Source: Brachyspira suanatina (GTDB lineage: Bacteria; Spirochaetota; Brachyspiria; Brachyspirales; Brachyspiraceae). From it: DNA of 64,000 bases. The DNA is taken from assembly GCF_001049755.1 (NCBI RefSeq), contig NZ_CVLB01000002.1, positions 109,743 to 173,742 of the forward strand. The letters run 5' to 3'. The position numbers were made by a program, and so were the translations under genes. This document shows positions 1 to 17,104 of this stretch, one piece after another (positions within the stretch are counted from its first letter, which is position 1; every line of letters starts with the position of its first letter). The notes under the pieces were generated by a model, which searched no databases, was not told the origin of the DNA, and saw only the letters and a program-made list of their open reading frames with translations.

Positions 1-7
1 CTTCCAT
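1..7 (-). CDS. First codons of an accessory gene, cut by window start
   Basis: An ATG (complement of 5-7) follows directly after the TAA stop of the methylase cassette, and GAAGGGGA in the cassette's last codons is a well-placed ribosome binding site. Only two codons are visible, so the product is unknown. The call rests on the same arrangement at three other methylase tails in this window (6262, 10858, 17054). Confidence 0.4.
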
Positions 8-1483
8 TTAATCCCCTTCTATAACCCTAATCTCCTCATCAGTCAAATTGTATAATGAATACACAATCTTATCAATAGCCTTGTCCACCGCCTGAATACG
101 CGTGTTAAGCATCTCAATAGTGTTAGGGTTCTTCTCGGAGGAAAGTTTTTTGTTTAAATCAATGATGTTGTCAACGAGCTTAATTAAATTTTCTTCTGTA
201 TTTTTATCAATATCTGGAATAGGAAAATCATTTATATATTGAGGTTTAAACCTTGTTGTATTGCCCCTTAATATAGTACCTGTTTTTTTAACATAATAAG
301 TAAATAACTTACTATTAAAAATCCCCATATAAACATTGATGTTGTATATAGCCTTTTCATTAAATACAATACTGTAAATTGTAGTTGTATGATATAAATT
401 TTTATCATCAATTACAGCCTGCATTCTCATATTAATATCAGGAAAAGAAATTTTTTTATGCTCAAATTCATTTAAATTTTGAGGTCTGCTATATTGCCAC
501 CATGTATTTTTAAATTTTCCATGTTCTCTGCTTTCTAATACTTTTTTATTTTCTTTTAGATATTCCCAAGCCTTTGGAAAATTATCCATTATTTCTTTAG
601 AAGTATATAATGATAATGAACCATTTGATAATTTATAAGGAAATATAACACATCGAGTTGGTATTAATTCTGTATATCTTTTTAAATCTTTACCTAATAA
701 AAAGTGCTTTATAAATCCTCTCTCTATTTCTATTTCCCTATCTAATGACTTTGAATAAGTTTTTACAATTCCATTATTTTCTTCCACCCTTGTAAAACAT
801 AAATATCGTCTGCACTTGTAGCTATACCTTGAAATATTTTTTTTGTTATATCTTTTAAAACTATTTTATAATTTTTTAATTTATCTATTATAGACAAAGT
901 ATCATTATCATAAAAATTCCAATTATCTTTTGTTATTATACTAATAGGAAAAGTTTCAAAAGTAGATTCAAACAATTTTTCTTTTATATCTACATTTTCA
1001 TCAAATCTCAATAATTTAAAATCATTTTGTTCTTCATTAGATAAAAATAATAAACAAGTATATGTAGTAGCATTATTAAATATTTGATTCTCACCAAAAT
1101 ACACAACTTTTTTTAATGCCTTTCTATTAGATATTATTTCTCTTAAATTCTCTCCCATATCTACTTTAAAAAACTTATGAGATAAAATATATCCCATTTC
1201 ACCTGTAGACTTTAATAACTGAAAAGCTTTTTCAACAAAACATAAATAAATATCTATATTACCACTGTTTGCACTTTTATAAGTTTGTTTTAATGCATCT
1301 ACAGTTAATGGGCTTGATTCTGCCATTGTCTGAATTTTTACATAAGGAGGGTTTCCAATTACTACATCAAATCCCCCTGCTTTCATTATATCCCTAAACT
1401 TAGAATTCCAATCGAAACAGTTAATTTTATATAAAGTGTCATCGTCCAAATCGAGATGGCTCTCGTAAAAATCATTGCCTACT
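8..1483 (-). pseudogene. Frameshifted 3' cassette of a type IIG-like restriction-methylase
   Basis: This is a 3' half-copy of the enzyme at 11295-14153. It starts at the codons for GNDFYES, carries methylase motif IV (GNPPY) and a TaqI-like C-terminal specificity region, and ends RVIEGD. The N-terminal nuclease and SAM-binding motif I are absent. The reading frame breaks at about 787-789: the upstream frame (763-1497, GTG start) runs out after YVLQGWKKIMEL, while the downstream frame (8-787) resumes with NGIVKTYSKSLD. Comparison with the cassette at 6262 shows that one base is missing in a GGG run. The last ~130 codons are nearly identical to that cassette, while the middle (residues after PYKL) differs, as expected for exchangeable target-recognition segments. 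Its 5' end abuts a hairpin repeat. It is probably not expressed as an active enzyme and could act as a sequence donor (inference). Confidence 0.8.
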
Positions 1484-1973
1484 ACTATCTGTAGCACCTT
1501 CCCGCACGATAACGCTCACCCTTACAGCAAGTACAATGTACGCGACCGAAGGAAGTACTGTAAAGTATGCGGCTAATTACCCAACCATAAAAAATAAAAT
1601 TAACCAAAAAGCCAACCCAGAAATAATTTTTTTGAAAATTTACCTAACAATCAACACCTTGACCGAGCGAAACAAAAAATAAAAAGATATAAAATTTTAA
1701 TTTTTTACTTATATAGTACCCACTCGAACCCGCCCTTATAGTTAAACAGAATTTTTTTAAACAATAAGCCCAAAAAACTAACTTTTTTAGAAAAAACTAC
1801 GAGCTGTAGCACCGCCCCGCAGTATTCGCCATACGGGCTTCCCGCACGGTAATGCTCACACTTACAGCAAGTACAATGTACGTGCGGCTGATTACCCAAC
1901 ATTAAACAAAAATAAATTAATTGTAAAAACATAACCTATATGTTAAAATTAATAATAAAAATAAGGACTAAAA
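1484..1973 (+). repeat. Hairpin repeat blocks flanking the first methylase cassette
   Basis: Two copies of the island's dispersed repeat lie here in the plus orientation, near 1493-1790 and 1797-1920. Each contains CCGCACG, a ~40-60 base insert and a matching TGCGG arm followed by CTAATTACCCAAC or similar. AT-rich spacers with the phrase AACCCAGAAATAATTTTTTT and a C-rich stretch (CCCACTCGAACCCGCCC) follow. The open frame on the minus strand at 1705-1932 is repeat sequence read through and is not supported as a gene. The last ~40 bases hold the leader of the DUF4160 gene, with AAGGAC as its ribosome binding site. Confidence 0.7.
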
Positions 1974-2228
1974 ATGCCTGTTATATCAAGATTTTACGGT
2001 ATCATCATCAAAATGTATTTTCAGCAAAAAGAGAATAACCCTCCGCATTTTCATGCTATATATGGTGAGTATGTTGGAGTAATTGATATCAATGAATTAA
2101 AAATGATAGAAGGCGATTTACCTAATAAAGCATGTTCGCTTGTATTGGAATGGGCTAAAAATAATCAAGACGAACTTTTAAATATATGGAATACTCAAAA
2201 CTTTAAACAATTAGAACCTTTGGAGTAA
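1974..2228 (+). CDS. DUF4160 family protein
   Basis: This 84-residue protein has the DUF4160 signature: MPVISRFYGI at the N-terminus, then NPPHFHAIYGEY around residues 22-33, and a C-terminal helix with LVLEWAKNNQDELLNIW. Family members are small, of unproven biochemical role, and are often encoded next to a DUF2442 protein, as here (2-base gap). The pair resembles a toxin-antitoxin-like two-gene unit by size and layout, but that function is inference. AAGGAC sits about 8 bases before the ATG. It is one of only two genes on the plus strand in the island and is surrounded by repeat blocks, which suggests separate acquisition. Confidence 0.75.
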   Translation: MPVISRFYGIIIKMYFQQKENNPPHFHAIYGEYVGVIDINELKMIEGDLPNKACSLVLEWAKNNQDELLNIWNTQNFKQLEPLE

Positions 2229-2230
2229 TT

Positions 2231-2473
2231 ATGACTTTCCATAAAATTAAAAATGTTAAAGCTTTGGACAATCTCATTTTAGAAATAATATTTGAAAATG
2301 AAGAAATAAAATATTATGATATAAAAAAATTAATCCCTGAACATAAAGAGTTTGAAATTTTGAAAGATAAAACTTTATTTAATCTTGTAAAAGTAGATGT
2401 CGGCGGATACGGTATTTCTTGGAACGATGATTTGGATATATCATGCAACACTTTATACTACTCGCCTAGCTAA
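2231..2473 (+). CDS. DUF2442 family protein
   Basis: This 80-residue protein matches DUF2442: a short beta-rich domain with VKALDNLILEIIFENEEIKYYD near the start and VDVGGYGISWNDDLDISCNTLY near the end. It begins 2 bases after the DUF4160 stop and is surely cotranscribed with it. DUF2442 proteins are thought to be small binding or antitoxin-like proteins; no reaction is known. The final codons (YYSPS-stop) are already part of the dispersed repeat (CTCGCCTAGCTAA), so the native C-terminus may have been replaced by a few residues when the repeat inserted. Confidence 0.75.
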   Translation: MTFHKIKNVKALDNLILEIIFENEEIKYYDIKKLIPEHKEFEILKDKTLFNLVKVDVGGYGISWNDDLDISCNTLYYSPS

Positions 2474-3973
2474 CGCACTACTCGCCGTAGGGGCATTCCG
2501 TACGGTAACGCTCACCATTACAGCAAGTACAATGTAAGCGACCGAAGGAAGTACTGTAAAGTATGCGGCTAATTACCCAACCATAAAAAATAAAATTAAC
2601 CAAAAAGCTAACCCAGAAATATAAAAACGTATCCAGAAATAATTTTTTTTGAAATTTACCTTATTCCCCCACTGACCGAGCGAAACAAAAAATAAAAGGC
2701 TATAAAATTTTTAATTTTTACTTATATTATACCCGCCCGCCCACCCTATATAGTTAAACAAACATTTTTAACAAAACAAGCCTACAAATATAATTTTTTT
2801 AGAAAAAATTAGAAAAAGATTGTACTTTTTTCAATAAAAATTGTGAGCTTCTGGCAAGTTTACTTGACAGAACCCAAAAGCGAACAATTTTTATTTATAA
2901 TAAAACAAAAGAAGCAAAAATCATTTACATACTGTAGGATAATCCAAACATTCTGGCAATATACCAAAAACGCTAACGCGAATTTTATTAAATATACAAC
3001 GCAGGCTAAAGCCTTTTACTATGAACTACTCGCCTAGCTTACGCACTACTAGCCGTAGGGGCTTCCCGCACGGCAACGCTCACCATTACAGCAAGTACAA
3101 TGTACGTGCGGCTTATTACCCAACATCAAACAAAAACAAACTAACTAAAAAGCCAACCCAGAAATATAAAATCGAACCCGCAAACAGAAACTAACCCAGA
3201 AATATAAAACTAACCCACAAACTAAAACTAACTCAGAAATAATTTTTTTGAAATTTACCTAACAATCCCCCCTGACCGAGCGTAGCGAGGAAATACCCGG
3301 ACGAAGTCCACCGGAGGTGAGGGTACGCCCTTATTATTAAACAAACATTTTTAACAAAACAAGCCTACAAATATAATTTTTTTAGAAAAAATTAGAAAAA
3401 ATATTGTACTTTTTTCATAGGAAAAAAGTACCAAAAAACTACTTCTTTTGTGGCACAGGCGAAGCCCGCCTACGGCGAGAAGCAAAAAGCATTTACATCA
3501 TGTAGGATAATCCAATTTTTCTGGCAATATCCCAAAAAGCTAACGCGAATTTTTATTAAATATACAACGCAGGCTAAAGCCTTTTACTCTGAAATAATAA
3601 TCTACTTAAATATACGGCTAATTACCCAACATAAAACAAACTAACTAAAGAGCTAACCAAGAAATATAAAAACTAACCCACAAACTAAAACTAATCCAGA
3701 AATAATTTTTTTTGAAATTTACCTTATTACCCACCCAAACTCGCCCTTATAGTTAAACAAACATTTTTAACAAAATAAGCCCGAAAATATAAATTTTTTT
3801 CAAGAACTACTAAAAAAGTTGACTTTCCCAACCCCAACAAGCTAGCCATCTGAACCACTCGCCTAGCTAACGCACTACCTACGGTCGGGGGCATTCCGCA
3901 CCGTATATCTTAATATTAAGGCTAGTAAAATGTAGGTGCGGTTTATTATGCAATATTAAACAAAAATAAAAAA
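2474..3973 (+). repeat. 1.5-kb gene-free mosaic of dispersed repeats
   Basis: Three tandem-like mosaics occupy this stretch (about 2463-2800, 3025-3400, 3600-3970), all in the plus orientation. Each has parts of the same order: CTCGCCTAGCT(A/T)ACGCACTA, CCGCACGG hairpin, AACCCAGAAATA phrase, C-rich tract, and AGTTAAAC or TTAAAC followed by T-runs. A second repeated segment (about 2925-3025 and 3485-3590) carries AACGCAGGCTAAAGCCTTTTACT. Short plus-strand frames at 2843-3037 and 3450-3644 translate this segment and resemble each other only because the DNA is repeated. They lack convincing start sites and are not called genes. Confidence 0.7.
2732..2746 (-). other. G-quadruplex motif (minus strand)
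   Basis: The plus strand reads CCCGCCCGCCCACCC, so the minus strand has four GGG runs separated by single bases, the tightest form of a G-quadruplex motif. Such a run is very unlikely by chance in DNA this AT-rich. It lies inside a dispersed repeat block of the methylase island. Confidence 0.6.
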
Positions 3974-4771
3974 CTATATATTGTCTAACAATAATATAAA
4001 TTTGTTAAGGTCAAGTATTCGTGTATTATTAGAAGTATGAAAAAAACGAATATTATATCCATTATCTTTAACATAGCATAAATTAGATTTTAATGACAAG
4101 TTTTCATCATTAGTAACAAAATAATCACTAGACATTGAAAAACAGGAATGCATACCATCTATAAACATATTTCTATATTTTAATTTAGAATTTTTTTCAG
4201 ATAATTTATCTTCTACAATATCGATAAACAAATACATAGAAAGATATTTTTGAAATATATTAAAGTTTTTATTTTTATAAAAATTCTCTATTATTGTACT
4301 CATATATAATTGTTTTATATCATCATTATTTTTTAAAATGAACTTAATATTTTTTCTATCTTCGTTATATAGTTTTTTGTTTTCAATATATTTATTATGT
4401 TGTATTATAAAAGGATTTGACACAGAATCAATATAACCTAAATCCATCTGCTTAAACATATCATCAAAATTTTCTGCTTTTTTATACTTATCAGTTATTT
4501 TTATATTATGATCAATACAAAATCTTTCTTCTTGTTCAAAATAATATAAATAATTACTATCAACTATTTGACTCATAAATTCAAAATCTTCTTCTTTTTT
4601 ATTTGTTTTATCATTTTGCAAATCAAAAATGTGAGCCATAGAATATACATACAAAAATTTATTTTTTGAATTAATTATTTTATTAAAATTATTTGTATTA
4701 CCAGATTTATATTCATTTTTTAATATACTAAATATATTTTTATCAAAATAAACTATTTTTTTATTTTCCAT
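3974..4771 (-). CDS. PIN-like domain protein, second gene of a two-gene accessory operon
   Basis: This 265-residue protein starts with KIVYFDKNIFSIL, which places an Asp at the end of the first strand as in PIN nucleases. Near the C-terminus it has DGMHSCFSMSSDYFVTNDENL, matching the PIN pattern of an Asp-x2-His helix followed by DYFVTxD. The middle ~150 residues are helical and charged with no recognised domain. PIN-like folds usually cleave RNA with a metal bound by these acidic residues; activity here is inference. Its ATG lies inside the 3' end of the upstream TPR-DUF2971 gene (19-base overlap), with AAGGGTGA as ribosome binding site, so the two proteins are translationally coupled and probably act together. 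The whole unit sits directly behind a methylase cassette. Confidence 0.65.
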   Translation of the reverse strand: MENKKIVYFDKNIFSILKNEYKSGNTNNFNKIINSKNKFLYVYSMAHIFDLQNDKTNKKEEDFEFMSQIVDSNYLYYFEQEERFCIDHNIKITDKYKKAENFDDMFKQMDLGYIDSVSNPFIIQHNKYIENKKLYNEDRKNIKFILKNNDDIKQLYMSTIIENFYKNKNFNIFQKYLSMYLFIDIVEDKLSEKNSKLKYRNMFIDGMHSCFSMSSDYFVTNDENLSLKSNLCYVKDNGYNIRFFHTSNNTRILDLNKFILLLDNI

Positions 4772-6255
4772 TTATCACCCTTAATAATATTAATCTCTTT
4801 AGGTATCAGATTAAACAAATTATTTTTATCAGACTCCATTTTATAAAATTTAACATTATCATCTTTAACTAAACTTTTTATCAATTTAATATCATCATTG
4901 CTTGAATTCATTCCAAAATAAATAGCCTTAATTGGTAAATAAATATATTCCTCTTTAGTATCAGCAATAATCCTATATTCATTTTCATACTGCCAATTTT
5001 TATGTTTTATATAAAATAATGATATAAATTTATTTTCATATTCAATATCTTTATTGTTTAATATATAAGGATATACCTTATTAGTAATTATTTTATTAGT
5101 GTAAATAACTTTTTTTAAAATCAATTTATTAATTTTACTATTCAGTTTTTTTAAATAACTTATATCATATTCTATACATATACCTTTATGTTCATCAGCA
5201 TAATGACTCCACATAAGAAAATTATCATATTCTACAGCTAAAGAACATATTTTTATTCTATCTATATTTTTTATATTTTTAAAATCATATATATTTAATT
5301 TAATTGGTGGATCAATGGGGTCATTAAAATAATTATAATTACTTAATCTCAAATTTTTTAATTTATCATTATTATTAGATATTAATTTTAATGTACTAAT
5401 ATTTATACATCTATATTTATATAATATATTATTTTCCAATATATCAGATTTTATACTAAAATCTTTTTTTATTATTGTTTGAAATATTTTATAAAAATAT
5501 CGTTTCATATTAATATTTTTTGATAATATTAAATATAAAAAATAGAAAGTTTCTAATGTCCTATTATTATCACAATTTATACTCTTATTAAAATATTCAT
5601 AAGCTAACTCTAAATGATTAACAAATCCTTCAAATAAGGCTCTACTATTATAATGTACTGATTGTAAACCATAATGTGACTCCCTTAAATTCATAAATCT
5701 TATAATATCATTTAAAGCCTCATCGTATTCTCCCAATTCAAAAAAACTAATAGCTCTATTATAATAAGAATTATAATTATCATATTCTATTGATTTATTA
5801 TAATAATATATAGATTTCCTATATAACTTTTTTCTATGATATAAAAAACCAATATAATTATATAGAGTCCCTTTACCTACAATATGTTTTAGAAAATTAT
5901 TAGTATGCAATGATATAGCTTTTTCCAAATCTTTTAATGGCTGTTTAACTTTATTTTTATACAAAAGAATATGCCCTCTATAATATAAAGAAAAAACATA
6001 TTTATCATTTAATTTGATAGAATCATTAATATAACGAATCGCTTTTTTCTCATTATCTAATAAATAGTAAAAAACGCCTATATAACATTTTACTAAATAT
6101 TTACAGTCATTATCACATTTTTTTTCTTCATCAAGAAAATAGTTCAATCCATTTTGATAATTAGTATTTCTATCATTAATATCTAAGCCAATATCTTGAT
6201 AAAAATAATAAAATAAAAATTTATGATAATACTTATTAGCAAGTTTATCACTCAT
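4753..6255 (-). CDS. TPR-DUF2971 fusion protein
   Basis: The 500-residue product has two parts. Residues ~45-280 are helical repeats of TPR type (for example YYNKSIEYDNYNSYYNRAISFFELGEYDEAL). Residues ~285-490 match DUF2971: LRLSNYNYFNDPIDPP, then ICSLAVEYDNFLMWSHYADEHKGICIEYD, then KNWQYENEYRII. DUF2971 proteins are of unproven biochemistry and are recurrent in phage-defence neighbourhoods (general knowledge). The TPR part suggests sensing or binding of another protein. The ATG lies 6 bases after the stop of the methylase cassette at 6262, and GAGGGAT in the cassette's final codons is the only good ribosome binding site. The gene overlaps the PIN-like gene downstream. Codon use is extremely AT-rich, more so than the core genes. 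Confidence 0.7.
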   Translation of the reverse strand: MSDKLANKYYHKFLFYYFYQDIGLDINDRNTNYQNGLNYFLDEEKKCDNDCKYLVKCYIGVFYYLLDNEKKAIRYINDSIKLNDKYVFSLYYRGHILLYKNKVKQPLKDLEKAISLHTNNFLKHIVGKGTLYNYIGFLYHRKKLYRKSIYYYNKSIEYDNYNSYYNRAISFFELGEYDEALNDIIRFMNLRESHYGLQSVHYNSRALFEGFVNHLELAYEYFNKSINCDNNRTLETFYFLYLILSKNINMKRYFYKIFQTIIKKDFSIKSDILENNILYKYRCINISTLKLISNNNDKLKNLRLSNYNYFNDPIDPPIKLNIYDFKNIKNIDRIKICSLAVEYDNFLMWSHYADEHKGICIEYDISYLKKLNSKINKLILKKVIYTNKIITNKVYPYILNNKDIEYENKFISLFYIKHKNWQYENEYRIIADTKEEYIYLPIKAIYFGMNSSNDDIKLIKSLVKDDNVKFYKMESDKNNLFNLIPKEINIIKGDKWKIKK

Positions 6256-6261
6256 AATATT

Positions 6262-7752
6262 TTATCCCTCAATAATCCTAACTTCATCATCAGTTAAATT
6301 GTATAACGAATACACAATCTTATCAATAGCCTTGTCCACCGCCTGAATACGCGTGTTAAGCATTTCAATAGTGTTAGGGTTCTTCTCGGAGGAAAGTTTT
6401 TTGTTTAAATCAATGATGTTGTCAACGAGCTTAATTAAATTTTCTTCTGTATTTTTATCAATATCTGGAATAGGAAAATCATTTATATATTGAGGTTTAA
6501 ACCTTGTTGTATTACCCCTTAATATAGTACCTGTTTTTTTAACATAATAAGTAAATAACTTACTATTAAAAATCCCCATATAAACATTAATGTTATATAT
6601 AGCTTTTTCATTAAATACAATACTGTAAATTGTAGTTGTATGATATAAATTTTTATCATCAATTACAGCCTGCATTCTCATATTAATATCAGGAAAAGAA
6701 ATTTTTTTATATTCAAATTCATTAAGATTTTTAGGATATATATATGCATAAAATTTTTCATTTTTCATTTTACCATTTTCTCTATTTTCCAATGATTTTT
6801 TATTCTCTTTTAAATATTCCCAAGCTTTTGGAAACTGCTCTTTTATTTCTTTTTGTGAATATAATACTGCTGAACCAGATACTAATTTATATGGAAATAT
6901 AACCCATTTAGTATTTGTAGGTATACAATATCTTTTAATATCTTTACCAAATAAAAATGGTTTTATAAATTCTCTTTCTATCTCAATTTCTTTATCTAAT
7001 GACTTTGAATAAGTTTTTACAATTCCGTTAACTTCTTCTCCTCCATGTAAAACATAAACAATATCAGAACTAGTTTGAAGTCCAACAAAAATTTTACGAG
7101 ATATATCTTTTAATACTGTTTTATAATTTTTTAATTTTTCAATTATGGATAAAGTATTATTACTATAAAAATTCCAATTATCTTTTGTTATTATACTAAT
7201 AGGAAAAGTCTCAAAAGTAGCTTCAAATAACTTTTCTTTTATATCTACATTTTCATCAAATCTTAATAATTTAAAATTATCTTGTTCTTCATTAGATAAA
7301 AATAACAAACAGGTATATGTAGTAGCATTATTAAATATTTGATTCTCCCCAAAATACACAACTTTTTTTAATGCTTTTCTATTAGATATTATTTCTCTTA
7401 AATTCTCTCCCATATCTACTTTAAAAAACTTATGAGGTAAAATATATCCCATTTCACCTGTAGACTTTAATAATTGGAGAGCTTTTTCAACAAAACATAA
7501 ATAAATATCTATATTACCGCTGCTTGCACTTTTATAATTTTGTTTCAATGTTTCAACAGATAACGGACTTGATTCCATCATAGTTTGAATTTTTACATAA
7601 GGAGGGTTTCCAATTACCACATCAAATCCCCTTGCTTTCATTATATCCCTAAACTTAGAATTCCAATCGAAACAGTTAATTTTATATAAAGTGTCATCGT
7701 CCAAATCGAGATGGCTCTCGTAAAAATCATTGCCTATTAAACTATTACCGCA
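6262..7752 (-). pseudogene. Silent 3' cassette of a type IIG-like restriction-methylase
   Basis: This is an intact-frame 3' half-copy of the enzyme at 11295-14153, from NSLIGNDFYES through methylase motif IV (GNPPYVKIQ) and a specificity region to VRIIEG-stop. It lacks the nuclease and motif I (DPACGSG). The junction with a dispersed repeat is sharp at TGCGG (7748-7752), a pentamer shared by repeat and gene. The frame continues into the repeat and could start at TTG 7806, giving 514 residues beginning MAFDKGRRYRAGSPYDEYCG, but no proper start site is visible. The C-terminal ~130 codons nearly match the cassette at 8-1483, while the central target-recognition part differs. It could be a silent donor for specificity switching or a decayed duplicate. 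The TPR-DUF2971 gene follows 6 bases later. Confidence 0.75.
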
Positions 7753-7859
7753 GTATTCGTCATACGGGCTTCCCGCACGGTATCGCCTCCCCTTATCAAA
7801 CGCCAACTATACGTGCGGCTAATTACCCAACATCAAACAAAAACTAAAACAATAAAATT
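7753..7859 (+). repeat. Hairpin repeat at the 5' edge of the second cassette
   Basis: A short copy of the dispersed repeat, with GCTTCCCGCACGGTA, an insert and ACGTGCGGCTAATTACCCAAC. It has the same orientation and the same junction side as the repeat beside the first cassette. No gene is visible in it. Confidence 0.65.
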
Positions 7860-8036
7860 TCATGATCTTTTTAATGGTATATTTTTTTCTTCAAAATAAA
7901 GTGATATGGCATTTTTTATTTCTTTCAAGGCTTCTTCTTCTGTTGCTCCAAAAGCACTTATATTATCTAATTCTTCTGATAAAGCTATATAGCCATCATC
8001 TTCTTCACTATAAAAAATTTTAATGCTATATTTCAT
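7860..8036 (-). CDS. hicB: HicB-like antitoxin, short
   Basis: The 58-residue product begins MKYSIKIFYSEEDDGYIALS and continues with ELDNISAFGATEEEALKEI. This is the HicB partial RNase H-like fold: a strand, a D/E-rich turn with DGY, then G-x-T-x-EEAL and a helix. HicB proteins bind and neutralise HicA and often repress their own operon. This one lacks the C-terminal DNA-binding helix-turn-helix or ribbon domain of longer HicBs. The ATG is 1 base after the hicA stop, and TTGGAGGAATGAT in the end of hicA supplies a strong ribosome binding site. The order toxin-antitoxin is typical of hicAB. Confidence 0.8.
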   Translation of the reverse strand: MKYSIKIFYSEEDDGYIALSEELDNISAFGATEEEALKEIKNAISLYFEEKNIPLKRS

Positions 8037-8037
8037 A

Positions 8038-8280: not shown

Positions 8281-8319
8281 AATTTAATTATAAAATTATT
8301 TAATATAAAATCAACTGTT

Positions 8320-9881: not shown

Positions 9882-10018
9882 TATTCCTCCAATAATATAT
9901 ATTTGTAATTTAATAATTATTATATAGAATAAATCGACAGAATTAAATAAAAATTTATCTTTAAATTATCGGTATTTTTGTCAATATAATTTAATAAAAA
10001 ATAATAATATTAATAAAA

Positions 10019-10849
10019 CTATTTTTTATTAATATCATTATACAAATCTAACAATTTATAAAATGAATCATCAGGTAAAGATCCTACAATTTGCATAATA
10101 TCACTAGAATATTTTATATCAATATCAGATATAAAATATAATTTAGATTTTATAAACTTACAAGTATCTTGATGATTAAATAAAGTAATATTTATACCTC
10201 CTTTATTTAAAGAACTTTCAAATTTAATACCATCAAATCCAAGATTTTTTAATAATTCTGCAATATATTGAGTTGGTATATAATCTATATCATTTCCATA
10301 ATTTATATTAGAAAAACATTTATTTAAAGAAATAAATTCTGTTTTAATATTTTCAATATTCTCAAATGTAAATTTTGTAATATCAAATAACGTTAAATCA
10401 CATAAAGTTTTTATTTCAGCTACACTTACAAAATTACGCACCATGGGTCTAACTTCTTTTATACTTGTATTTATATCTTCGGATGTGTATAAATAACTAA
10501 TTTTTTCAGGATTTGCTCTTCCTGCTTTTGCTATTTCTGGACTTGGTGCCATAGAATTTTTTTCATCATAACCAGTTATTTCTTTTTCATCATTAATTTT
10601 TTGTTCGTCTATATCTCCATCAAATATCCTACTACGATATAAGTAACTATCTTTTTTTAATATATATTTATGATTTAATCCCTCTTTTTGTACAGTATCT
10701 ATTATTTTATGTTTTGGAAAAAATCTGTTATTAGAAATAATTTCTTTTTTGAAATCTTCAACATCAATGATTATTTTATATTTAAAATATAACAAAACAA
10801 TTGCTACAGCCCATACTGGATTAATATCTTTGTTATTATCTTCTTCCAT
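10019..10849 (-). CDS. RES-domain protein, probable NAD-degrading toxin
   Basis: The 276-residue protein contains a full RES domain from about residue 68. It has YRSRI (Arg72), then MAPSPEIAKAGRANPEKISYLYTSEDINTSIKEVRP (Arg111, Tyr119, Glu132), and GFDGIKFESSLNKGGINITLF (Ser212/213). RES is named for its conserved Arg, Glu and Ser; characterised members phosphorolyse or hydrolyse NAD+ and stop growth. The N-terminal 60 residues form a helical extension of unknown role. No RES-linked Xre/MbcA-type antitoxin gene is visible next to it. The ATG lies 8 bases after a relic of the methylase C-terminus (10858-10949), whose GAAGGAGA is its ribosome binding site. A defensive growth-arrest role is inference from context. 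Confidence 0.75.
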   Translation of the reverse strand: MEEDNNKDINPVWAVAIVLLYFKYKIIIDVEDFKKEIISNNRFFPKHKIIDTVQKEGLNHKYILKKDSYLYRSRIFDGDIDEQKINDEKEITGYDEKNSMAPSPEIAKAGRANPEKISYLYTSEDINTSIKEVRPMVRNFVSVAEIKTLCDLTLFDITKFTFENIENIKTEFISLNKCFSNINYGNDIDYIPTQYIAELLKNLGFDGIKFESSLNKGGINITLFNHQDTCKFIKSKLYFISDIDIKYSSDIMQIVGSLPDDSFYKLLDLYNDINKK

Positions 10850-10857
10850 TTTTTTAT

Positions 10858-10949
10858 TTAATCTCCTTCTATAATCTTTCTTTCTTCCTCTGATATATTA
10901 TAAATGGAATAAACAGTTTTATCAATAAAAGAATTAATATATAAATAAT
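10858..10949 (-). pseudogene. Relic of a methylase C-terminus
   Basis: The minus strand encodes INSFIDKTVYSIYNISEEE and then RKIIEGD-stop, which aligns with QIDALVYKLYNFIDEEVRIIEGE of the intact enzyme and IDKIVYSLYNLTDEE of the cassettes. Nothing of the rest of the enzyme remains: the HNH-like gene ends at 10950. The relic's GAAGGAGA followed by the stop serves as ribosome binding site for the RES gene. Confidence 0.7.
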
Positions 10950-11228
10950 TTACTGATTAAGTCTAAGTAAATCTATTCGTTCTACATTCATAGGTGATTG
11001 ATTATAAATATAATTGCATTCTTTACACAAAGGTACTATATATACCATATCATGAGAATAATTAGGATAAACATGAGCTCCAACCTCAGCATCGTTATTA
11101 CATGCTAAATTAGAGCACTTTTGAAATTTTCTTCCTTTTTTATCTTCCCAATATTCTTTCCAAGTATTATAACCACTTGGTGGATTTTCATTTGAAGTTC
11201 CTATTTTATTATATACTGTAATCATCAT
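10950..11228 (-). CDS. Small HNH-like zinc protein
   Basis: This 92-residue protein has Cys38-x4-Cys43 (KCSNLACNN), then GAHVYPNY with His52, then YIVPLCKECN with Cys68-x2-Cys71. This is the zinc scaffold and betabeta-alpha layout of HNH endonucleases; the first His of the classical active site could be His52, but the final catalytic His is not obvious. It might be a small nuclease or only a zinc-binding protein. It starts at one of two adjacent ATGs behind AAAGGAG, 66 bases after the stop of the intact restriction-methylase, and probably shares its transcript. Confidence 0.6.
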   Translation of the reverse strand: MMITVYNKIGTSNENPPSGYNTWKEYWEDKKGRKFQKCSNLACNNDAEVGAHVYPNYSHDMVYIVPLCKECNYIYNQSPMNVERIDLLRLNQ

Positions 11229-11294
11229 AACTCCTTTGTAATTTATATAAATTATAATAATGTAATAATTTTATTTAAACCTCTTATAGTTCCT

Positions 11295-14153
11295 TTATTC
11301 CCCTTCTATAATTCTCACTTCCTCATCGATAAAATTATACAACTTGTACACCAACGCATCAATCTGCTTGTCAACAGCATTGATTTGCCTGTTAATCATA
11401 GTAACAGCATTAGGATTTTTTTCAACAGCTAACTTCTTGTTTAACGCAATGATACTGTCAACTAAAGTAACCATTTTGTCATGCATTTCCTTGTCTTGTG
11501 TATTGGACATATCTAACAATGGTACAGGTAAATTATATAATTCATTAGTTAATATATGATTATTTGAACTTGTTAACTTATATCTCCAATTTAATAATTT
11601 AGAATTTAGTAATCCTAAAAAATATTTAATATCATAATCGCTATTATTGACAACATAACCACATGTATTTGCAACATAACTATTATTTTCTAATAATTGA
11701 AAATTTAATCTTCTATCTTTTTGAGTGTTAACTACTTGTTGATATACAAGCCTTACATTATTTCTATCATTAAGTTTTTTAGAAGAAGAAATACTTTTTA
11801 CAATTTTATCATCTATAAAACTATCCTTTTTTGACTCCAAAAATAAATATCTTTGTACTGCATCACCTCTAATTAAATTAAAAATATTTTCTGATTCCTT
11901 ACTACTTCTTATAGCATCTGAAAATTTAGTTAAATGAATTTCCCCTTCTATAAAAGATACAAAATTATCTTTCTTAAAATTATCTAATTTACATAATTTA
12001 GATAATAAAGAAATTTCACCACTACTATTTATTAAAGGTATTTTTTCTAAATAAATAACTATATCTTTAGGTATTAAAACAGAATACCTACTTTTTAAAT
12101 CATCAGAATTCATCAAACCTTTAGATAACATAATTTCTTTTTTATTATTTGATAATATATATATACTAACATCTTGAGTAACATTTTTAAAAACTTTTGC
12201 TTTTTCTGGAAAATGTTTTATGTTTAAATAAGAAAAAGTATCTAGTATATAATTTCTTAAATTTATATTAGATTTATCTGTTAAAATACCTGTTGGCATA
12301 ATTACACCAATTAATCCATTTGTATTAATTAGCTTTGTCATTTTTTCAGTAAATACTTTATATAAATTTATTTCTCCTTGTATAGTGTTATATTTAATTT
12401 TTATATAATTATTAGTCTGTTTTAAAGTATTATAATCTTCTTTATTTTCTTTTCCTAATGTTATTTCATACGGCGGATTGCCTATCACCACATCGAAACC
12501 GCCACCTTTAAAAATATTTTTAAATTCGTCCTCCCAATCAAAACAATTTATTTTATATTGCGTCTCCTCGTCAAAATCAAGCACCGACTGGCTCTCGTAA
12601 AAATCATTGCCTATTAAACTATTACCGCATTTGATATTGTCCTCCAATGACGGTAAAGCTCGCTCATTAAATAAATCCTGATTGTTCTGTATTGACGCTG
12701 GACTCTCCCCCTCCAAACATTTCATAAGTAATGATAATTTCGTTACCTCTACCGCATTGCTGTCTATGTCAACTCCAAATATATTGTTGCGTAATATCTG
12801 CTTCTTTATCCAAATTGTTAAATCCCCATTCTCTTTTATTACATCTTCTTTTGAACCCTTAAACTTCGCCCTGTCCTTTATCTTGTTGTAATATTCAATA
12901 TGATAATTAAGTAAATATTTATACGCCCCAAGTAAAAAACTTCCGCTGCCGCAAGCCGGATCCAATATTTTTATATTCGCTATCTCCTCAGGCTTCTTCC
13001 CCTTTATAGCCTCCCCAACCGTATTCGCTACTATATAATCAACTATATACTCAGGTGTATAATAAACCCCTCCTGCCTTACGCACCTCTGGTTTTAATTC
13101 TATCTTCGCACTATGATTCTTCCCTATAGTGATAGTCTTACCCAAAAACTGCTCATAAGCATTCCCTATTATCTCAACCGATATCACAGAAAACTCATAA
13201 GGACTCAAAGGATAATAAAGCTCATTAATAATCTCTTTTATTACTTTATTATCAATCTCAATACTGCTGCTAATACTGTCTTTAGAAAAATCAAACAGCC
13301 CCGAATTATACCTGCCGTCAGCCTTCTCAAAAATTTTTAAAAGATTACCATAAAAACTCTCGCCCTTATTCTCGCAAGTCCTTTTTAAATCCCCATACTC
13401 CTCAATGCCTCTGTCTTCAGCCGCCCTCAAAAATATAATCCTGTCAATAATCTGCTGAACTGCATAATTCAAATCACGTACAGATAAATTTTTATTAAGC
13501 TTCGCAATATTAGATGCAAGCTTAGTCCTTAAATTATCAAGTGAATTAAGAAAATCTATATCAACACTTTCAGTACCTTTTTTGTTTGAAGTACCTGCAA
13601 TATATTTTTCAAGCGAACCCTGTTCAATCCTCTCTTTATTAAGTATCTCATAAAGAAAATCAAATCTATTAAGATAATCTTCAAAATGAATATACTCAAT
13701 CCTAGCAGTAGAAGCCTTATCATTAATATTTGGCTTTCTAGTGCAGTCATAAACGGCAAGCTCTTCAAAATCAGTGAGGAAACTTATACCGAGCTTAGCA
13801 CTCCAGCCATACCTCCTAAGCTGAAAAGCAGGCAAACTGTCCTCTTTAAGATTAACACCCGGCTTTTTCGCCTCCACAAAGAAAACCCTATTCCCCCCAA
13901 TACGAAATGCATAATCAGGAGCTTTAGTTTCCTTCCCCACTTTCACCTTATCCTCATGAATTACATCACGATAAGTTTGTGATTTACCCGCCCTGTTAGC
14001 TACATCCCAACCAAATGCCTCAAAGAACGGATCCAAAAAATCCCTTCTAGTCTCCGTTTCATTATAATTTTTATTTGTATACTGATCCTTGTTATTCCTA
14101 AACTTAATAACTAACTCTTCAACTTTTTTATAAACTTCTTCTTTACTATACAT
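11295..14153 (-). CDS. Full-length type IIG-like restriction-modification enzyme
   Basis: A 952-residue fused restriction-methylase. The N-terminus carries a PD-(D/E)xK-type nuclease (PDYAFRIGGNRVFFVEAKKPG). An N6-adenine methylase domain follows, with motif I ILDPACGSGSFLLGAY near residue ~400 and motif IV GNPPYEI near ~560. The C-terminal third is a TaqI-like target-recognition region ending DEEVRIIEGE. One chain of this type methylates its site and cuts unmethylated DNA. I place the start at ATG 14151-14153 (MYSKEEVYKK), since GGGGGAC precedes it; an in-frame ATG at 14198 would add 15 residues without a good binding site. It is the only complete copy in the window. The two half-copies and two relics elsewhere match its 3' portion only. 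A heptamer repeat and a hairpin repeat lie in its upstream region. Confidence 0.85.
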   Translation of the reverse strand: MYSKEEVYKKVEELVIKFRNNKDQYTNKNYNETETRRDFLDPFFEAFGWDVANRAGKSQTYRDVIHEDKVKVGKETKAPDYAFRIGGNRVFFVEAKKPGVNLKEDSLPAFQLRRYGWSAKLGISFLTDFEELAVYDCTRKPNINDKASTARIEYIHFEDYLNRFDFLYEILNKERIEQGSLEKYIAGTSNKKGTESVDIDFLNSLDNLRTKLASNIAKLNKNLSVRDLNYAVQQIIDRIIFLRAAEDRGIEEYGDLKRTCENKGESFYGNLLKIFEKADGRYNSGLFDFSKDSISSSIEIDNKVIKEIINELYYPLSPYEFSVISVEIIGNAYEQFLGKTITIGKNHSAKIELKPEVRKAGGVYYTPEYIVDYIVANTVGEAIKGKKPEEIANIKILDPACGSGSFLLGAYKYLLNYHIEYYNKIKDRAKFKGSKEDVIKENGDLTIWIKKQILRNNIFGVDIDSNAVEVTKLSLLMKCLEGESPASIQNNQDLFNERALPSLEDNIKCGNSLIGNDFYESQSVLDFDEETQYKINCFDWEDEFKNIFKGGGFDVVIGNPPYEITLGKENKEDYNTLKQTNNYIKIKYNTIQGEINLYKVFTEKMTKLINTNGLIGVIMPTGILTDKSNINLRNYILDTFSYLNIKHFPEKAKVFKNVTQDVSIYILSNNKKEIMLSKGLMNSDDLKSRYSVLIPKDIVIYLEKIPLINSSGEISLLSKLCKLDNFKKDNFVSFIEGEIHLTKFSDAIRSSKESENIFNLIRGDAVQRYLFLESKKDSFIDDKIVKSISSSKKLNDRNNVRLVYQQVVNTQKDRRLNFQLLENNSYVANTCGYVVNNSDYDIKYFLGLLNSKLLNWRYKLTSSNNHILTNELYNLPVPLLDMSNTQDKEMHDKMVTLVDSIIALNKKLAVEKNPNAVTMINRQINAVDKQIDALVYKLYNFIDEEVRIIEGE

Positions 14154-14351
14154 AATGTCCCCCATTACTTTTAATAATTTTATTTTTGTAACATTCAAAT
14201 ATAAAAAATAAACTTTAAACGCAATACTCTCATTAAACTATAAAATAAATATACACTTTTATATAGTATACAAAATTTTACTTAAATATTCAATGAAAGA
14301 TACCATTTTTTATAGTACAACCTTTAAGAAATATAATTGATAGAAAACTGA

Positions 14352-14407
14352 TTGACTATTGACTGTTGACTGTTGACTGTTGACTGTTGACTGTTGACTG
14401 TTGACTT
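14352..14407 (+). repeat. Heptanucleotide tandem repeat, 8 units of TTGACTG
   Basis: Six perfect TTGACTG units (14359-14400) are preceded by TTGACTA and followed by TTGACTT, with no spacers. It lies about 200 bases upstream of the restriction-methylase start. Unit-number change by slippage could alter promoter spacing, a known form of phase variation. Whether the promoter lies nearby is not shown by the sequence. Confidence 0.85.
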
Positions 14408-14499
14408 TCATAATATAAAATACCCCAATTATAACTTTATACTACAATACACCCAAACCGCACATTTTGCAACTAAATATAAGTAGAAAAAACAACCCA

Positions 14500-14655
14500 A
14501 ACATCAAACAACTACGAGCTGTAGCACCACCCCGCACGGTAACGCTTTACCTTATCAAATGTCCACTATATGTGCGGCTGAATATCCAACCATAAACAAT
14601 AAAATTAACTAAAAAGCTAACCCAGAAATAATTTTTTGAAAATTTATTTAGTACA
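14500..14655 (+). repeat. Hairpin repeat upstream of the restriction-methylase
   Basis: A copy of the dispersed repeat in plus orientation: GAGCTGTAGCACC, CCGCACGGTAACGC, an insert, TGTGCGGCTGAATATCCAAC and AACCCAGAAATAATTTTTTG. It ends just before the stop of the ASCH gene. Apart from this repeat and the heptamer array, the 14199-14671 interval shows no gene. Confidence 0.7.
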
Positions 14656-14671
14656 TTAATAAATTCATTAA

Positions 14672-15040
14672 TCATAGATATACAAAAGATTGAGGAGCAT
14701 AAAAAATATTAAAATCTTCTAATTTTTTAGGTTTACGATATTTTTTTATTTTACCTATTTTTATAGCATATGCTATTTCTTTATTTTCAAGATATTTATA
14801 AAAAAAATCTACAGAAACACCAGACTCATATTTTATTATGTTCCATACATTATCTAAATCATCAGATATTATATCTTCTATTTCAAATTCACCTACTACT
14901 TTAGAAATAGGAGATGAAGAATATATTATAATTTTTTTTATATTCTTCCTTTTAAAAATAGATTTTCTAATTTCATATTTTTTACTACCATTGAATATTT
15001 TTTCAACATATTCAGGTTTAATAGACAATAAAACTTTCAT
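14672..15040 (-). CDS. ASCH/PUA-like domain protein
   Basis: The 122-residue protein begins MKVLLSIKPEYVEKIFNGSKKYEIRK, the classic ASCH opening (strand, helix with I-F-x-G-x-K-x-x-E-x-R), followed by IIIYSSSPISKVVGEFEIEDI. ASCH domains have a PUA-like beta barrel and bind RNA or modified nucleotides; some family members cleave acylated cytidine. Its ATG overlaps the 3' end of the upstream PIN-GNAT-PUA gene by 23 bases, so the two are translationally coupled and probably act in one process. The specific substrate is unknown. Confidence 0.75.
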   Translation of the reverse strand: MKVLLSIKPEYVEKIFNGSKKYEIRKSIFKRKNIKKIIIYSSSPISKVVGEFEIEDIISDDLDNVWNIIKYESGVSVDFFYKYLENKEIAYAIKIGKIKKYRKPKKLEDFNIFYAPQSFVYL

Positions 15041-16544
15041 TTACTTTACACTCTCTTAATATTAATAAGAATTGTTCTTTTGTTATTTTTGTTAGACCTC
15101 TAATTCCATTATCAGCATCACTTATAATTCCTAGCTGCAGTAATCTACCTCTATTCATTCTATTACCAATTTTAAATGAATATACATATAAAAAATTAAT
15201 TAAAAATGGTTTAGTACCTTTACCATTCCAAAAATTAGATAATTCTTTATCTGTAAAAATACTTCTTTTCCTAGAATTTATTATAAATTCTTTTTCATTT
15301 TTTATCTTATCAATTTTTTCTTCAACTATTCCTATAGTAGTTATCACAGATGAATATTTTGCTGGTTTACCCTCTTCTTTAGTTCTATAAAATATTATAA
15401 TATCTCCCTTTTTTATATTTTTATTTAATGAACGAGATACATAAACTTTACTTATTGCATTCCTATGTGGTAAATTATCTTTAAAATCTTTTGCAGATTC
15501 TGTTTTTAAATAAGAATCAGGTAATAAATCTGTATGATAATCTGGATATATTGGTACTAAAAAGATATTTGTATTTATTGAAAAAAATGGATAAGTATGT
15601 TTTGGTTCTTCTATATTAAACATTTTTGAAAAATCCCTGACATAAACTAATTCTCCATTCTCCCCTTTTTTTCCCCATTTAATAAAACCATATTCTTCAA
15701 ATAAATTAATTAGTCTATTTTGTCCTTCTCTTTTATCAAAAATTGTAACATATATTTCATCAACTTTATTAGCTATTGCATTATCAAATATTATTTTTAT
15801 AAATCTCTCACCTAATTTGACTCCGTTATATTCTACTTTAAAAGTACCTATTTTTAGTCTTTTTTTAGGAGAAAATGCAGGAATTATATCAGTATAGTTT
15901 TCATCTTTATCTTCAACTTTTAAATATAAAAAAGATAATAATTTTTTATCTTTGTAAGTAACATAAGCTATTTCATTAGATTTTTTATTAAACCATTTAT
16001 CAAACTCGACATAATCTTCTTTTAAAGAATCAAAGAATTTATCTTCTAAATCTATATTTCCAAAATATTCTTTTTCTACAGATAAAACTTTATAATCAAT
16101 GAGTTCAGGATTTTCTGAAATAACTTTTTCTAGAAAAGAGTCTATTGTAAATACTTTATTATCTATATTTACTAATTTAGCTTTTTGATGTATTTTTTTA
16201 TCTTCTGTAATAAATATATCAACTCTATCATTTAAAAGTTCATTTAATAATAAAGTATCATTTTTATCATTTTCTGTTTTATCAAATTTTTCATATATCT
16301 CAAGTAGTTTTTTATTTAATGGAGCTTGAGTCATAAGTACTGTATAATTTTTGGATTTTATATTCATAACATTTACAGTATCAGAATTTGAGTTTTTATT
16401 TAATTCTTCAAGATTAATTTTATGTATACATTTTTCATATTTAGTCCTTTCTAGCCATTTAAATAGACTACCTATTTCTCTATTGATTATTTTATTACTA
16501 CTTTCTCTATGAATAATAATATTTGTATCTAAAAGTGCTTTCAT
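15018..16544 (-). CDS. PIN-GNAT-PUA-like three-domain protein
   Basis: The 508-residue chain contains three recognisable parts. Residues 1-~145 are a PIN nuclease domain (MKALLDTNIIIHRES with Asp6; NDTLLLNELLNDRVDIFITEDKKIHQKA, with a late acidic cluster). Residues ~165-315 look like a GNAT acetyltransferase (IGTFKVEYNGVKLGERFIKIIFDNAI, then LINLFEEYGFIKWG). Residues ~330-508 contain an EVE/PUA-like region (KGDIIIFYRTKEEGKPAKYSSVITTIGIVEE). The combination suggests cleavage and acetylation of RNA or aminoacyl-RNA guided by PUA-like binding, but no activity is known to me. It overlaps the ASCH gene downstream and follows the DUF2513 gene by 91 bases. The ribosome binding site is weak (TTGGAT). 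Confidence 0.7.
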   Translation of the reverse strand: MKALLDTNIIIHRESSNKIINREIGSLFKWLERTKYEKCIHKINLEELNKNSNSDTVNVMNIKSKNYTVLMTQAPLNKKLLEIYEKFDKTENDKNDTLLLNELLNDRVDIFITEDKKIHQKAKLVNIDNKVFTIDSFLEKVISENPELIDYKVLSVEKEYFGNIDLEDKFFDSLKEDYVEFDKWFNKKSNEIAYVTYKDKKLLSFLYLKVEDKDENYTDIIPAFSPKKRLKIGTFKVEYNGVKLGERFIKIIFDNAIANKVDEIYVTIFDKREGQNRLINLFEEYGFIKWGKKGENGELVYVRDFSKMFNIEEPKHTYPFFSINTNIFLVPIYPDYHTDLLPDSYLKTESAKDFKDNLPHRNAISKVYVSRSLNKNIKKGDIIIFYRTKEEGKPAKYSSVITTIGIVEEKIDKIKNEKEFIINSRKRSIFTDKELSNFWNGKGTKPFLINFLYVYSFKIGNRMNRGRLLQLGIISDADNGIRGLTKITKEQFLLILRECKVNESFIVY

Positions 16545-16635
16545 AAAAATAAATCCAAAAATTAATTTTATACATTATATAATAAAAAATAAAATAAAAA
16601 ACTTATTATAGTTCTTTTTTACTCCACAATAATTT

Positions 16636-17049
16636 TTATTTTAACTGTTCAACCAATAATTGAGTAACTAAAGAAATAGCACTATTAATTGCTAAATCCT
16701 TTATTTTAGTAAAAATTTTCTTTTGTTTCAGCCCACTTAAAAATTCACTTCCTTTTAAAGTTAGTTCATAAGAAGTACAATCAACTCTTACAAAAGGACT
16801 CTCAATATTTGGAGCAAAAGAATATTGATACTCTTTATTAATATTTTCTATACACTCTGCTTTTAATAATTCTTTCATATGATATACTAATGTAACATAT
16901 TTCAAATAATCTTCATCTGTTTCTAATGCCCTTCTACTTGGTATTTTCACATCTAATTTGTTAAGTAATTCTTTACCGTCTATTTTAGGTAATGGGTAAT
17001 CCTCTATTACAGTTAAAATATTTTTAATTAATTGATAATCTATTTTCAT
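16636..17049 (-). CDS. DUF2513-like protein
   Basis: This 137-residue protein fits DUF2513: MKIDYQLIKNILTVIEDYP at the N-terminus, a middle segment YLKYVTLVYHMKELLKAECI, and YELTLKGSEFLSGLKQKKIFTKIKD. The family has a winged-helix look and occurs in mobile regions; it may be a regulator of the following PIN-GNAT-PUA/ASCH genes. The C-terminal ~25 residues are hydrophobic. The ATG lies 4 bases after the stop of a methylase tail relic, whose AGAAGGAGAA is the ribosome binding site. Confidence 0.65.
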   Translation of the reverse strand: MKIDYQLIKNILTVIEDYPLPKIDGKELLNKLDVKIPSRRALETDEDYLKYVTLVYHMKELLKAECIENINKEYQYSFAPNIESPFVRVDCTSYELTLKGSEFLSGLKQKKIFTKIKDLAINSAISLVTQLLVEQLK

Positions 17050-17053
17050 AAAA

Positions 17054-17101
17054 CTATTCTCCTTCTATAATTCTCACTTCATCATCGCTCAAATTATAAA
17101 T
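17054..17101 (-). pseudogene. Relic of a methylase C-terminus
   Basis: The minus strand encodes YNLSDDEVRIIEGE-stop, matching the last 14 residues of the intact enzyme (YNFIDEEVRIIEGE). Upstream of it the frame closes at once. It marks the right edge of the island and provides the ribosome binding site of the DUF2513 gene. Confidence 0.7.
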
Positions 17102-17104
17102 TTA

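Follow-up and report, generated by a model that had tools for sequence, protein, structure and literature searches.

A probable cassette-exchange locus for anti-phage genes at the end of a type IIG restriction-modification gene in Brachyspira

A 64,000-nt stretch of a Brachyspira genome (G000:C2:109743-173742; G000 is this genome, and the whole stretch is called the window below) contains a full-length methylase gene together with several displaced copies of its C-terminal end. We conclude that a type IIG restriction-modification (RM) gene probably anchors a cassette-exchange locus for anti-phage genes here, one that is widespread in Brachyspira. Exchange at the methylase tail, which a preliminary description of the window had proposed, is supported by finding the same accessory gene behind different tails and unrelated DNA behind near-identical methylases. 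The picture drawn there, of modules that plug in behind the methylase 3′ end, needs amendment in two respects: the whole specificity half is often swapped, and the right edge of the moved unit is often a hairpin repeat.

The comparison drew on 26 genomes of the genus, the window's own included, with one assembly per species. Loci from 21 genomes were analysed, with G006 and further pieces added afterwards; the fetched stretches were 20-40 kb long or ran to contig ends, and one contig of G013 (L063) was dropped ahead of counting. The names ileS, acrB/RND, HNH, PIN and HsdM were assigned by eye or taken from the preliminary description, without a family search; GNAT and PUA are labels of that description, and the functions of accessory genes are given at the level of annotation. 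The RM protein of the window has matches, not all of them the RM gene itself, in all 26 genomes. Relatives were found in Brachyspira innocens, B. pilosicoli, B. alvinipulli, B. catarrhinii, Brachyspira sp. G79 and Brachyspira metagenome-assembled genomes (MAGs), and outside the genus in one Kapaibacterium MAG and one Bacteroidetes MAG. No paper on the Brachyspira methylase-tail locus was found in the open-access literature searched.

Methylase tails recur across the genus

Judged by its domains, the methylase of the window is a type IIG RM gene, with HSDR_N and Eco57I above cut-off and TaqI_C just below it (26.3 versus 26.5 bits) in one chain. The five methylase C-termini reported earlier at window positions 8, 6262, 10858, 11295 and 17054 were confirmed by a repeat family that aligns all five at 68-100% over 44 nt. 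A tail profile, for which 15 full-length genes including that of the window were used, finds all five, over 107, 106, 26, 109 and 15 residues, respectively. The 26-residue tail has an E-value of 6.6e-9. The 15-residue tail reaches only 3.4e-3 by itself, and we accepted it because the same short tail and the same upstream bases occur in G010, G015 and G019. A sixth tail lies just outside the window (G000:C2:109408-109629). The displaced pieces are of two kinds, C-terminal halves that begin at about RM codon 520 (6262-7753 and 8-1481) and short tails (10858 and 17054).

The multi-tail arrangement is confirmed as real and as recurring in the genus: 12 of the 21 genomes have at least two tails. 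Within the limited stretches, an ileS-like or acrB-like flanking cluster was identified in 15 of the 21 and both in 5; G006 has both. With shared flanks and variable anti-phage content, the locus qualifies, at the level of annotation, as a defence hotspot.

Identity switches at the methylase stop

Sequence identity across the junctions was read in 20-nt bins. Between the RES-domain cassettes of G000 and G005 it stays at 35-65% until 40 nt ahead of the methylase stop, rises to 75% and then 95% in the two final bins, and is 90-100% over the 160 nt past the stop and 50-95% beyond. The 26-residue tail is common to G000 and the RES cassette of G002 as well. A like switch is seen in the HNH-like cassettes of G000, G009, G010 and G015, with 85-100% past the stop apart from one 70% bin in G010. 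The converse is seen for the near-identical methylases of G004/G010, G002/G018, G005/G009 and G005/G008, where identity is mostly 15-65% from the stop onward. When conserved blocks (at least 400 nt, at least 90% identity) were compared between genomes, 15 of 208 block boundaries fell no more than 35 nt from a methylase stop in both genomes, whereas randomised positions, drawn for the query genome of each pair only, gave a mean of 3.2 and in 2000 trials never reached 15.

The RES gene occurs in seven copies in 6 of the 26 genomes, all within the type IIG locus. It stands directly behind a full-length RM gene in G005 and G017, behind one with a broken N-terminal half in G002, and behind displaced tails in G010 and in G000 (twice, one a relic). 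The G007 copy follows an apparently decayed short tail; the other six are right behind a tail. Accessory genes were thus found behind full-length methylases too, RES in G005 and G017 and a KAP-ATPase gene in G006. The TPR-DUF2971 gene was uninformative as a tracer, with TPR repeats matching in 24 of 26 genomes.

Two cassettes are shared nearly unchanged between species

The KAP cassette is the best single case for exchange at the methylase tip. At the locus, G006 carries another type IIG protein (DUF7149, DUF7814 and Eco57I; 1149 aa) with the same kind of tip. Its best BLAST stretch against the window RM protein is 29% over 143 residues, and the best PADLOC models of the two differ (PDLC03612 versus PDLC03604). 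The KAP-ATPase gene lies directly behind this full-length gene in G006 and behind a displaced fragment in G019. Counted from the stop of the methylase gene as far as the first hairpin of the repeat, the two cassettes differ by 4 substitutions and by indels of 33 nt and 2 nt over 2,064 nt; the acrB-like genes of the same genomes are 82.6% identical. The left edge of the shared block lies 32 nt before the methylase stop, in the tip, and its right edge lies in the repeat. The KAP gene is one 663-aa ORF (open reading frame) in G006 and two ORFs in G019.

The second case is a ShosTA cassette shared by G018 and G015 at 99.2% over 1,892 nt. In G018 its left edge lies 7 nt ahead of the methylase stop; in G015 the sequence in front of it reads like a DUF2513 gene end. 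Pairs within the same group were left out of this listing of moved blocks. In the window, the 17 nt past the DUF2513 stop (16619-16635) resemble the last bases of the methylase tip, and the G015 ShosTA cassette begins at the corresponding place, behind its DUF2513 end.

The RM gene behaves as exchangeable modules

Codon-aligned DNA identity, profiled in 25-codon bins, points to three modules that move separately: an N-terminal half, a specificity half, and a tip joined to its accessory gene. Between the RM genes of G000 and G019, identity is 85-100% as far as about codon 575, falls to 41-60% across the specificity part and returns to 95, 96 and 89% over the last ~55 codons. The reverse pattern is found between G009 and G005, with 52-85% over the first ~350 codons and 88-100% thereafter.

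Displaced halves match full-length genes of other genomes. The displaced half at 6262-7753 matches the C-terminal half of the full-length G011 protein at 92% over 448 residues, and the N-terminal halves are 60% identical. Other displaced pieces compare with full-length proteins as follows: G004 with G015 at 90-92%, G003b with G015 at 93%, G004 with G017 at 89%, G019 with G012 at 84%, G010 with G016 at 82% (192 residues), G021 with G016 at 93% (102 residues) and G019 with its own full copy at 94%. For 4 of 6 full/displaced pairs (G011/G000, G015/G004, G017/G004 and the G019 pair), the specificity part is 79-100% identical and the tail falls to 62-84%. A drop in the tail beside a matching specificity part means that the tail is exchangeable apart from the specificity half.

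The ratio of nonsynonymous to synonymous substitution (dN/dS) is 0.07-0.22 for six displaced/full pairs, 0.10 and 0.11 for two full/full pairs, and 0.06 and 0.30 for two displaced/displaced pairs. As long-silent copies should drift upwards, these low values suggest that the halves were recently expressed or have been kept circulating.

A 5- or 7-base tandem repeat occurs near the 5′ end of 7 of 19 full-length RM genes, with 5-14 copies across species. It lies inside the open frame in six (G004, G005, G010, G018, G015 and G023) and upstream of the frame in the window. These repeats suggest slipped-strand phase variation, and a frame shift in the RM gene should silence the accessory gene coupled to its tip too.

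A two-hairpin repeat closes many units

A repeat of ~90 nt was found in 109 copies in the 24 stretches searched, 105 of them on the RM strand. Its sequence can form two stem-loops, and in hairpin 2 both sides have changed at 4 of 4 pairs (23 cells versus 5.0 in shuffles). Among the 32 genes that end near a copy (gene end within -30 to +60 nt), 19 have the repeat starting within -10 to +10 nt of their stop, with one ORF doubtful. By reading, 17 of 18 located displaced starts come immediately after a GTAG repeat end, and they do so at several different RM positions; in 14 of these that end is the foot of hairpin 2. The eighteenth (window 6262-7753) lies inside a variant repeat end. The 18 exclude pieces that the mid-gene profile did not locate and two matches of another RM family. 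In G000 the best copies are concentrated in the locus. A 296-nt repeat query had some match in 22 of 26 genomes, and no Rfam family matched window 1-17500 at gathering scores.

The main rival to tail exchange starts from these properties. The repeat would be an attC-like-positioned site of some recombinase, and the tip would merely tolerate insertions. The closeness of the repeat to gene stops, its almost uniform orientation, the GTAG ends in front of displaced starts at different RM positions, and tyrosine-recombinase-like matches in all 26 genomes speak for it. On the other side, no integron integrase (TIGR02249) was found above cut-off in any of the 26 genomes. Matches to this model below cut-off occur in all 26 and also in 14 of 14 control genomes, and were taken for other tyrosine recombinases. 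The Y1 (HUH) transposase PF01797 was found in 0 of 26 genomes and in 5 of 14 control genomes. No recombinase gene was recognised in the array ORF maps or among the scanned proteins, the arrays not having been searched ORF by ORF. The left boundaries of the two moved cassettes, 7 and 32 nt before the stop, do not fall at one fixed site. We consider a site-specific system rather unlikely, and two specific forms of it were rejected: an integron, for want of an integrase above cut-off in the 26 genomes, and REP/RAYT or IS200-type mobility, by the Y1 result. The R and L boxes of attC, looked for by eye only, were not found.

Tight coupling and the other alternatives

Four tails had been described as followed by an accessory gene 0-8 nt after the stop, and they are: the gaps are 0 nt (tail at 8), 6 nt (6262), 8 nt (10858) and 4 nt (17054). 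Behind the full-length gene at 11295, the next ORF (92 aa) is 66 nt away. The tail codons had also been proposed to act as the ribosome binding site of the accessory gene. Shine-Dalgarno-like GGAG, GAGGG or GGGG is present in them, and coupling through these motifs is plausible. Over the fetched loci the profile found 49 tails. An ORF of at least 60 aa starts -4 to +10 from the stop in 16 of them, including a doubtful one in G003b (TTG start, 73 aa) and the one at window position 8, which lies at ambiguous bases; this compares with 22 of 194 other same-strand pairs (Fisher P = 7e-4). Among random stop triplets, 1048 of 9271 have an equally coupled ORF. Thus, tight coupling is about threefold enriched, yet not unique to tails.

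A motif close to GGAACTATAAGAGGTTT was seen after methylase stops where the accessory gene is not tightly coupled, in G000 (12706), G004 (7366), G009, G010, G012, G018, G019 and G021 (oriented coordinates) and in L113. It also occurs 5′ of the tail-less HNH-like copies of G011 and G017.

An enrichment of only threefold could be expected of an ordinary defence island. RM and anti-phage genes would then accumulate at a permissive site, with dead debris left by RM duplication and close gene spacing that reflects the usual packing of operons. Several displaced pieces are indeed broken. This explanation does not readily accommodate the identity switches at the stop in both directions or a nearly identical cassette from methylase tip to repeat. 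Nor would debris be expected to include displaced halves with dN/dS of 0.07-0.22 that match halves in the expressed position elsewhere. We therefore regard it as distinctly improbable.

Another candidate driver of insertion at the 3′ end of the methylase gene is a free-standing HNH homing endonuclease, whose action would leave displaced tails behind; we regard this as very doubtful. The HNH-like ORF does lie between the methylase and a short tail in G000 and G009. Against this, it has no Pfam match above cut-off and lies upstream of the RM gene, without a tail, in G011 and G017; homing was rejected as the general mechanism on its presence in just 6 of 26 genomes.

Misjoining of contigs through repeated tails, which the ambiguous bases flanking a short fragment beside the tail at window position 8 might suggest, was rejected for the locus as a whole and is scarcely credible as its explanation, given arrays in genomes of 1-2 contigs whose checked stretches have no N (L041 in G004, L044 in G007 and L048 in G010). 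At that one junction an artefact may be present, because ambiguous bases (N) stand at both ends of the fragment (C2:109625, 109738 and 109740-109742); the window itself has no N. The gene behind this tail had been called unknown. It reads instead as a TPR-DUF2971 gene of which roughly the first 38 codons are present, fused to the sixth tail: the TPR-DUF2971 match at the left edge covers residues 3-93 at 54% and extends into that tail. The N-flanked short fragment between the two tails left of the window may be an assembly joint or reflect a mixed population.

Observations that weigh against exchange at the tail

Several results weigh against the exchange reading. Neither flank was seen in the stretch fetched for 6 of the 21 genomes; six (G001, G005, G008, G011, G014 and G020) have a single tail; and with one genome per species, no strain pair displays a switch. 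The boundary test is not a clean probability, because the blocks share ancestry. The tail is the conserved C-terminal stretch of related enzymes, with PADLOC alignments that reach the profile ends, and part of the tail similarity is therefore ordinary homology. Tight coupling is limited to 16 of 49 tails. Among the cassette pairs, the c37 pair (G010/G012) has no clear DNA match and the c51 pair a weaker one, and the switch for these genes is weaker or not sharp. The G007/G000 pair keeps its tail identity, and the G017 pair shares the tail (95-96%) and differs in the stretch ahead of it. Some C-terminal halves have no close match in the set; for the window's own full-length gene the best is 33-35%. 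Some pieces are decaying, such as the half at 8-1481, which is in two frames, and the G019 KAP gene in its two ORFs. For the repeat, the count of further pair types is not above that in shuffles, hairpin 1 is nearly invariant, and weaker copies occur elsewhere in G000. Half of the scanned accessory proteins (23 of 46), including RES, DUF2513, the HNH-like ORF, c15 and c37, have no PADLOC match.

Accessory genes standing elsewhere without a methylase tail had been named as evidence that would count against the modules, and some were found. The HNH-like ORF is tail-less in 2 of 6 genomes (G011 and G017), and PIN-GNAT (PDC-M11A) stands behind an HsdM-like type I RM gene in 3 of 5 (G002, G006 and G023). 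The latter copies are close behind the HsdM-like gene at L098, L099 and L100 (G006, G023 and G002, respectively), away from the type IIG locus.

Cargo of the locus

PADLOC and Pfam were applied to a chosen part of the accessory genes. Among the 46 proteins scanned with PADLOC are related copies and one protein encoded at a second locus (L112); some of the 23 matches to its models are weak (capP-like; PDC-M11A at 7.6e-5). The matches comprise GajA/GajB (Gabija), reverse transcriptases of the retron (RT_VI, RT-Toprim) and DRT types with RT_UG14 among them, RT-associated DUF1848, RmrT/RmrA (Rosmer), ShosT, PsyrA/ShosA and capP-like proteins, together with the phage defence candidates (PDC) M11A/B, M30A, M41B/M30B, S31, S42 and S49. 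Pfam adds NACHT/NCH1 and nSTAND ATPases.

The second locus, L112 (G023:C23:40000-49448), has a broken RM gene of the MmeI/Eco57I type. The tail is matched weakly there (E = 5e-4 and 1e-3), and a gene for 395 aa starts at the stop, with the ~90-nt two-hairpin repeat after it.

Features of the window locus, from the RM gene and the units upstream of it to the left edge, are as follows (coordinates, strand, description and source).

17054-17098, minus: methylase tail remnant, 15 residues (tail profile)
16636-17049, minus: DUF2513 gene, start 4 nt past the tail stop (Pfam)
15018-16544, minus: 508-aa protein, PDC-M11A, PIN-GNAT-PUA in the preliminary description (PADLOC, E = 1.1e-202; no Pfam match)
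14672-15040, minus: ASCH-domain protein, PDC-M11B (Pfam, PADLOC)
14511-14599, minus: hairpin repeat element between the PDC-M11A/B cassette and the RM gene (repeat search)
14359-14400, no strand: six 7-base repeat copies upstream of the RM reading frame (repeat scan)
11295-14198, minus: full-length gene of type IIG RM character, 967 aa (Pfam HSDR_N, Eco57I; PADLOC REase_MTase_IIG, E = 1.3e-191)
10950-11228, minus: 92-aa ORF 66 nt past the RM stop, HNH-like by eye, no Pfam match above cut-off (ORF map)
10858-10938, minus: methylase tail remnant, 26 residues (tail profile)
10019-10849, minus: RES-domain gene, start 8 nt past the tail stop (Pfam)
8892-9881, minus: 329-aa protein, PDC-S42 (PADLOC)
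8351-8886, minus: three hairpin repeat elements, 8801-8886, 8468-8556 and 8351-8468 (repeat search)
7860-8280, minus: HicA-type toxin gene (8038-8280) and small partner ORF (7860-8036) (Pfam)
7750-7840, minus: hairpin repeat element fused to the displaced methylase half (repeat search)
6262-7753, minus: displaced C-terminal RM half, frame still open (Pfam, alignment)
4753-6255, minus: TPR-DUF2971 gene, PDC-S31, start 6 nt past the tail stop (Pfam, PADLOC)
3974-4771, minus: 265-aa protein, PIN in the preliminary description, no Pfam or PADLOC match (scans)
3872-3963, minus: hairpin repeat element after the TPR-DUF2971/265-aa cassette (repeat search)
3043-3133, minus: hairpin repeat element (repeat search)
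2475-2589, minus: hairpin repeat element (repeat search)
1974-2473, plus: DUF4160/DUF2442 gene pair, a shared passenger (matches the G002 array at 96.5% in a 629-nt block)
1819-1909, minus: hairpin repeat element (repeat search)
1480-1593, minus: hairpin repeat element fused to the second displaced half (repeat search)
8-1481, minus: second displaced C-terminal RM half, two frames meeting near 763-787 (alignment)
1-7, minus: first bases of the ORF after the tail at 8, which runs beyond the window into ambiguous bases (sequence)

DUF4160/DUF2442 pairs recur as array passengers, with clusters in 8 genomes, and so does the HicA-type gene, with a cluster in 4. Further into the window, a 775-aa protein with DUF285 repeats and a DUF4132 domain (20372-22699) adjoins the ileS-like gene.

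Proposed mechanism

From the recurrence of the arrangement, the module borders, the modules in both displaced and full-length positions, the two RM families and the low dN/dS, all read from sequence, we infer an order of events, a recombination enzymology, a route of DNA arrival, translational coupling, use of an archive and a defence function for each gene. In this model the mobile unit would consist of a methylase end (a few to ~70 codons), one or more accessory defence genes and the ~90-nt two-hairpin repeat, which would often start at or just past the accessory stop. Exchange would take place by recombination at three places: the specificity half would be swapped around the NPPY motif and the accessory gene in the tail or tip, the third place being the hairpin repeat. 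Entry of a new unit would push the old C-terminal half or tip downstream together with its accessory gene, and the array would grow. In the active position the tip codons GAAGGAGA/GAGGGGGA would serve as ribosome binding site, and the accessory gene would be translated together with the methylase; displaced units would form an archive. The recombination may be homologous or based on short homology, with the repeat as a longer anchor. Brachyspira has a gene transfer agent, VSH-1, and either this agent or phage could deliver the DNA.

A bolder version, which we offer tentatively as a possibility, is an integrase-free, integron-like immune bank with the methylase end as left connector and the two-hairpin repeat as right connector. 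The methylase end might then give homology, a stop codon and a ribosome binding site all together. Standard cassettes might plug into RM genes of any compatible kind, other families included, so that the cargo would come under the promoter and phase switch of the RM gene; those unplugged might wait in the array downstream and cycle back.

If exchange at the methylase end is true, it shows how anti-phage systems could be acquired and rotated at a single site by a bacterium without a recognised integron, the end of a restriction gene being the socket. DNA-methylation specificity, phase variation and the choice of defence would be united in one transcription unit. A rule of guilt by position would also follow, in which unknown genes directly behind methylase tips are good candidate anti-phage systems.

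Comparison with known systems

By analogy, the nearest systems in working principle appear to be the pneumococcal tvr locus, the orphan modules of Rhs/CdiA and integron arrays. Orphan Rhs/CdiA modules are displaced 3′ gene ends that encode a C-terminal toxin together with an immunity gene. Like the Brachyspira pieces, they are displaced 3′ ends, each with a downstream gene, that lie behind an intact copy and share a core stretch with it; the Brachyspira units differ in joining a methylase end to a separate defence system. In integron arrays, a gene is followed closely by a structured repeat, cassettes are mostly in one orientation, and the cargo includes defence and toxin-antitoxin genes. The Brachyspira arrays share the structured repeat after the gene, the mostly single orientation, and the defence and toxin-antitoxin cargo. 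They differ in having no integrase above cut-off and no attC boxes recognised by eye, and in that their units begin with part of a methylase gene.

PrrC is an anti-phage gene embedded in a type I RM operon as a fixed partner. A defence effector within or behind an RM operon is common to both; the Brachyspira slot differs in being swappable. The PIN-GNAT gene behind an HsdM-like gene (3 of 5 genomes) fits the embedded pattern.

In Helicobacter pylori, RM genes undergo domain movement in which specificity parts are exchanged (PMC3077401), and Campylobacter jejuni has a phase-variable type IIG RM system (PMC4889913). The likeness lies in the exchange of specificity parts and in the short 5′ tandem repeats of 7 of the 19 full-length Brachyspira genes. 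To our knowledge, exchange of an accessory defence gene along with the methylase end is not part of either case.

For the pneumococcal tvr locus (SpnIV type I RM), hsdS pieces, a recombinase and circular intermediates are reported (PMC6265443). It resembles the Brachyspira locus in being an RM locus that varies, in keeping spare specificity pieces together with direct repeats, and in that recombination alters specificity (PMC6265443). The Brachyspira locus differs from what is described there in being of type IIG, in having no recombinase recognised, and in that its units bring different anti-phage genes behind the methylase.

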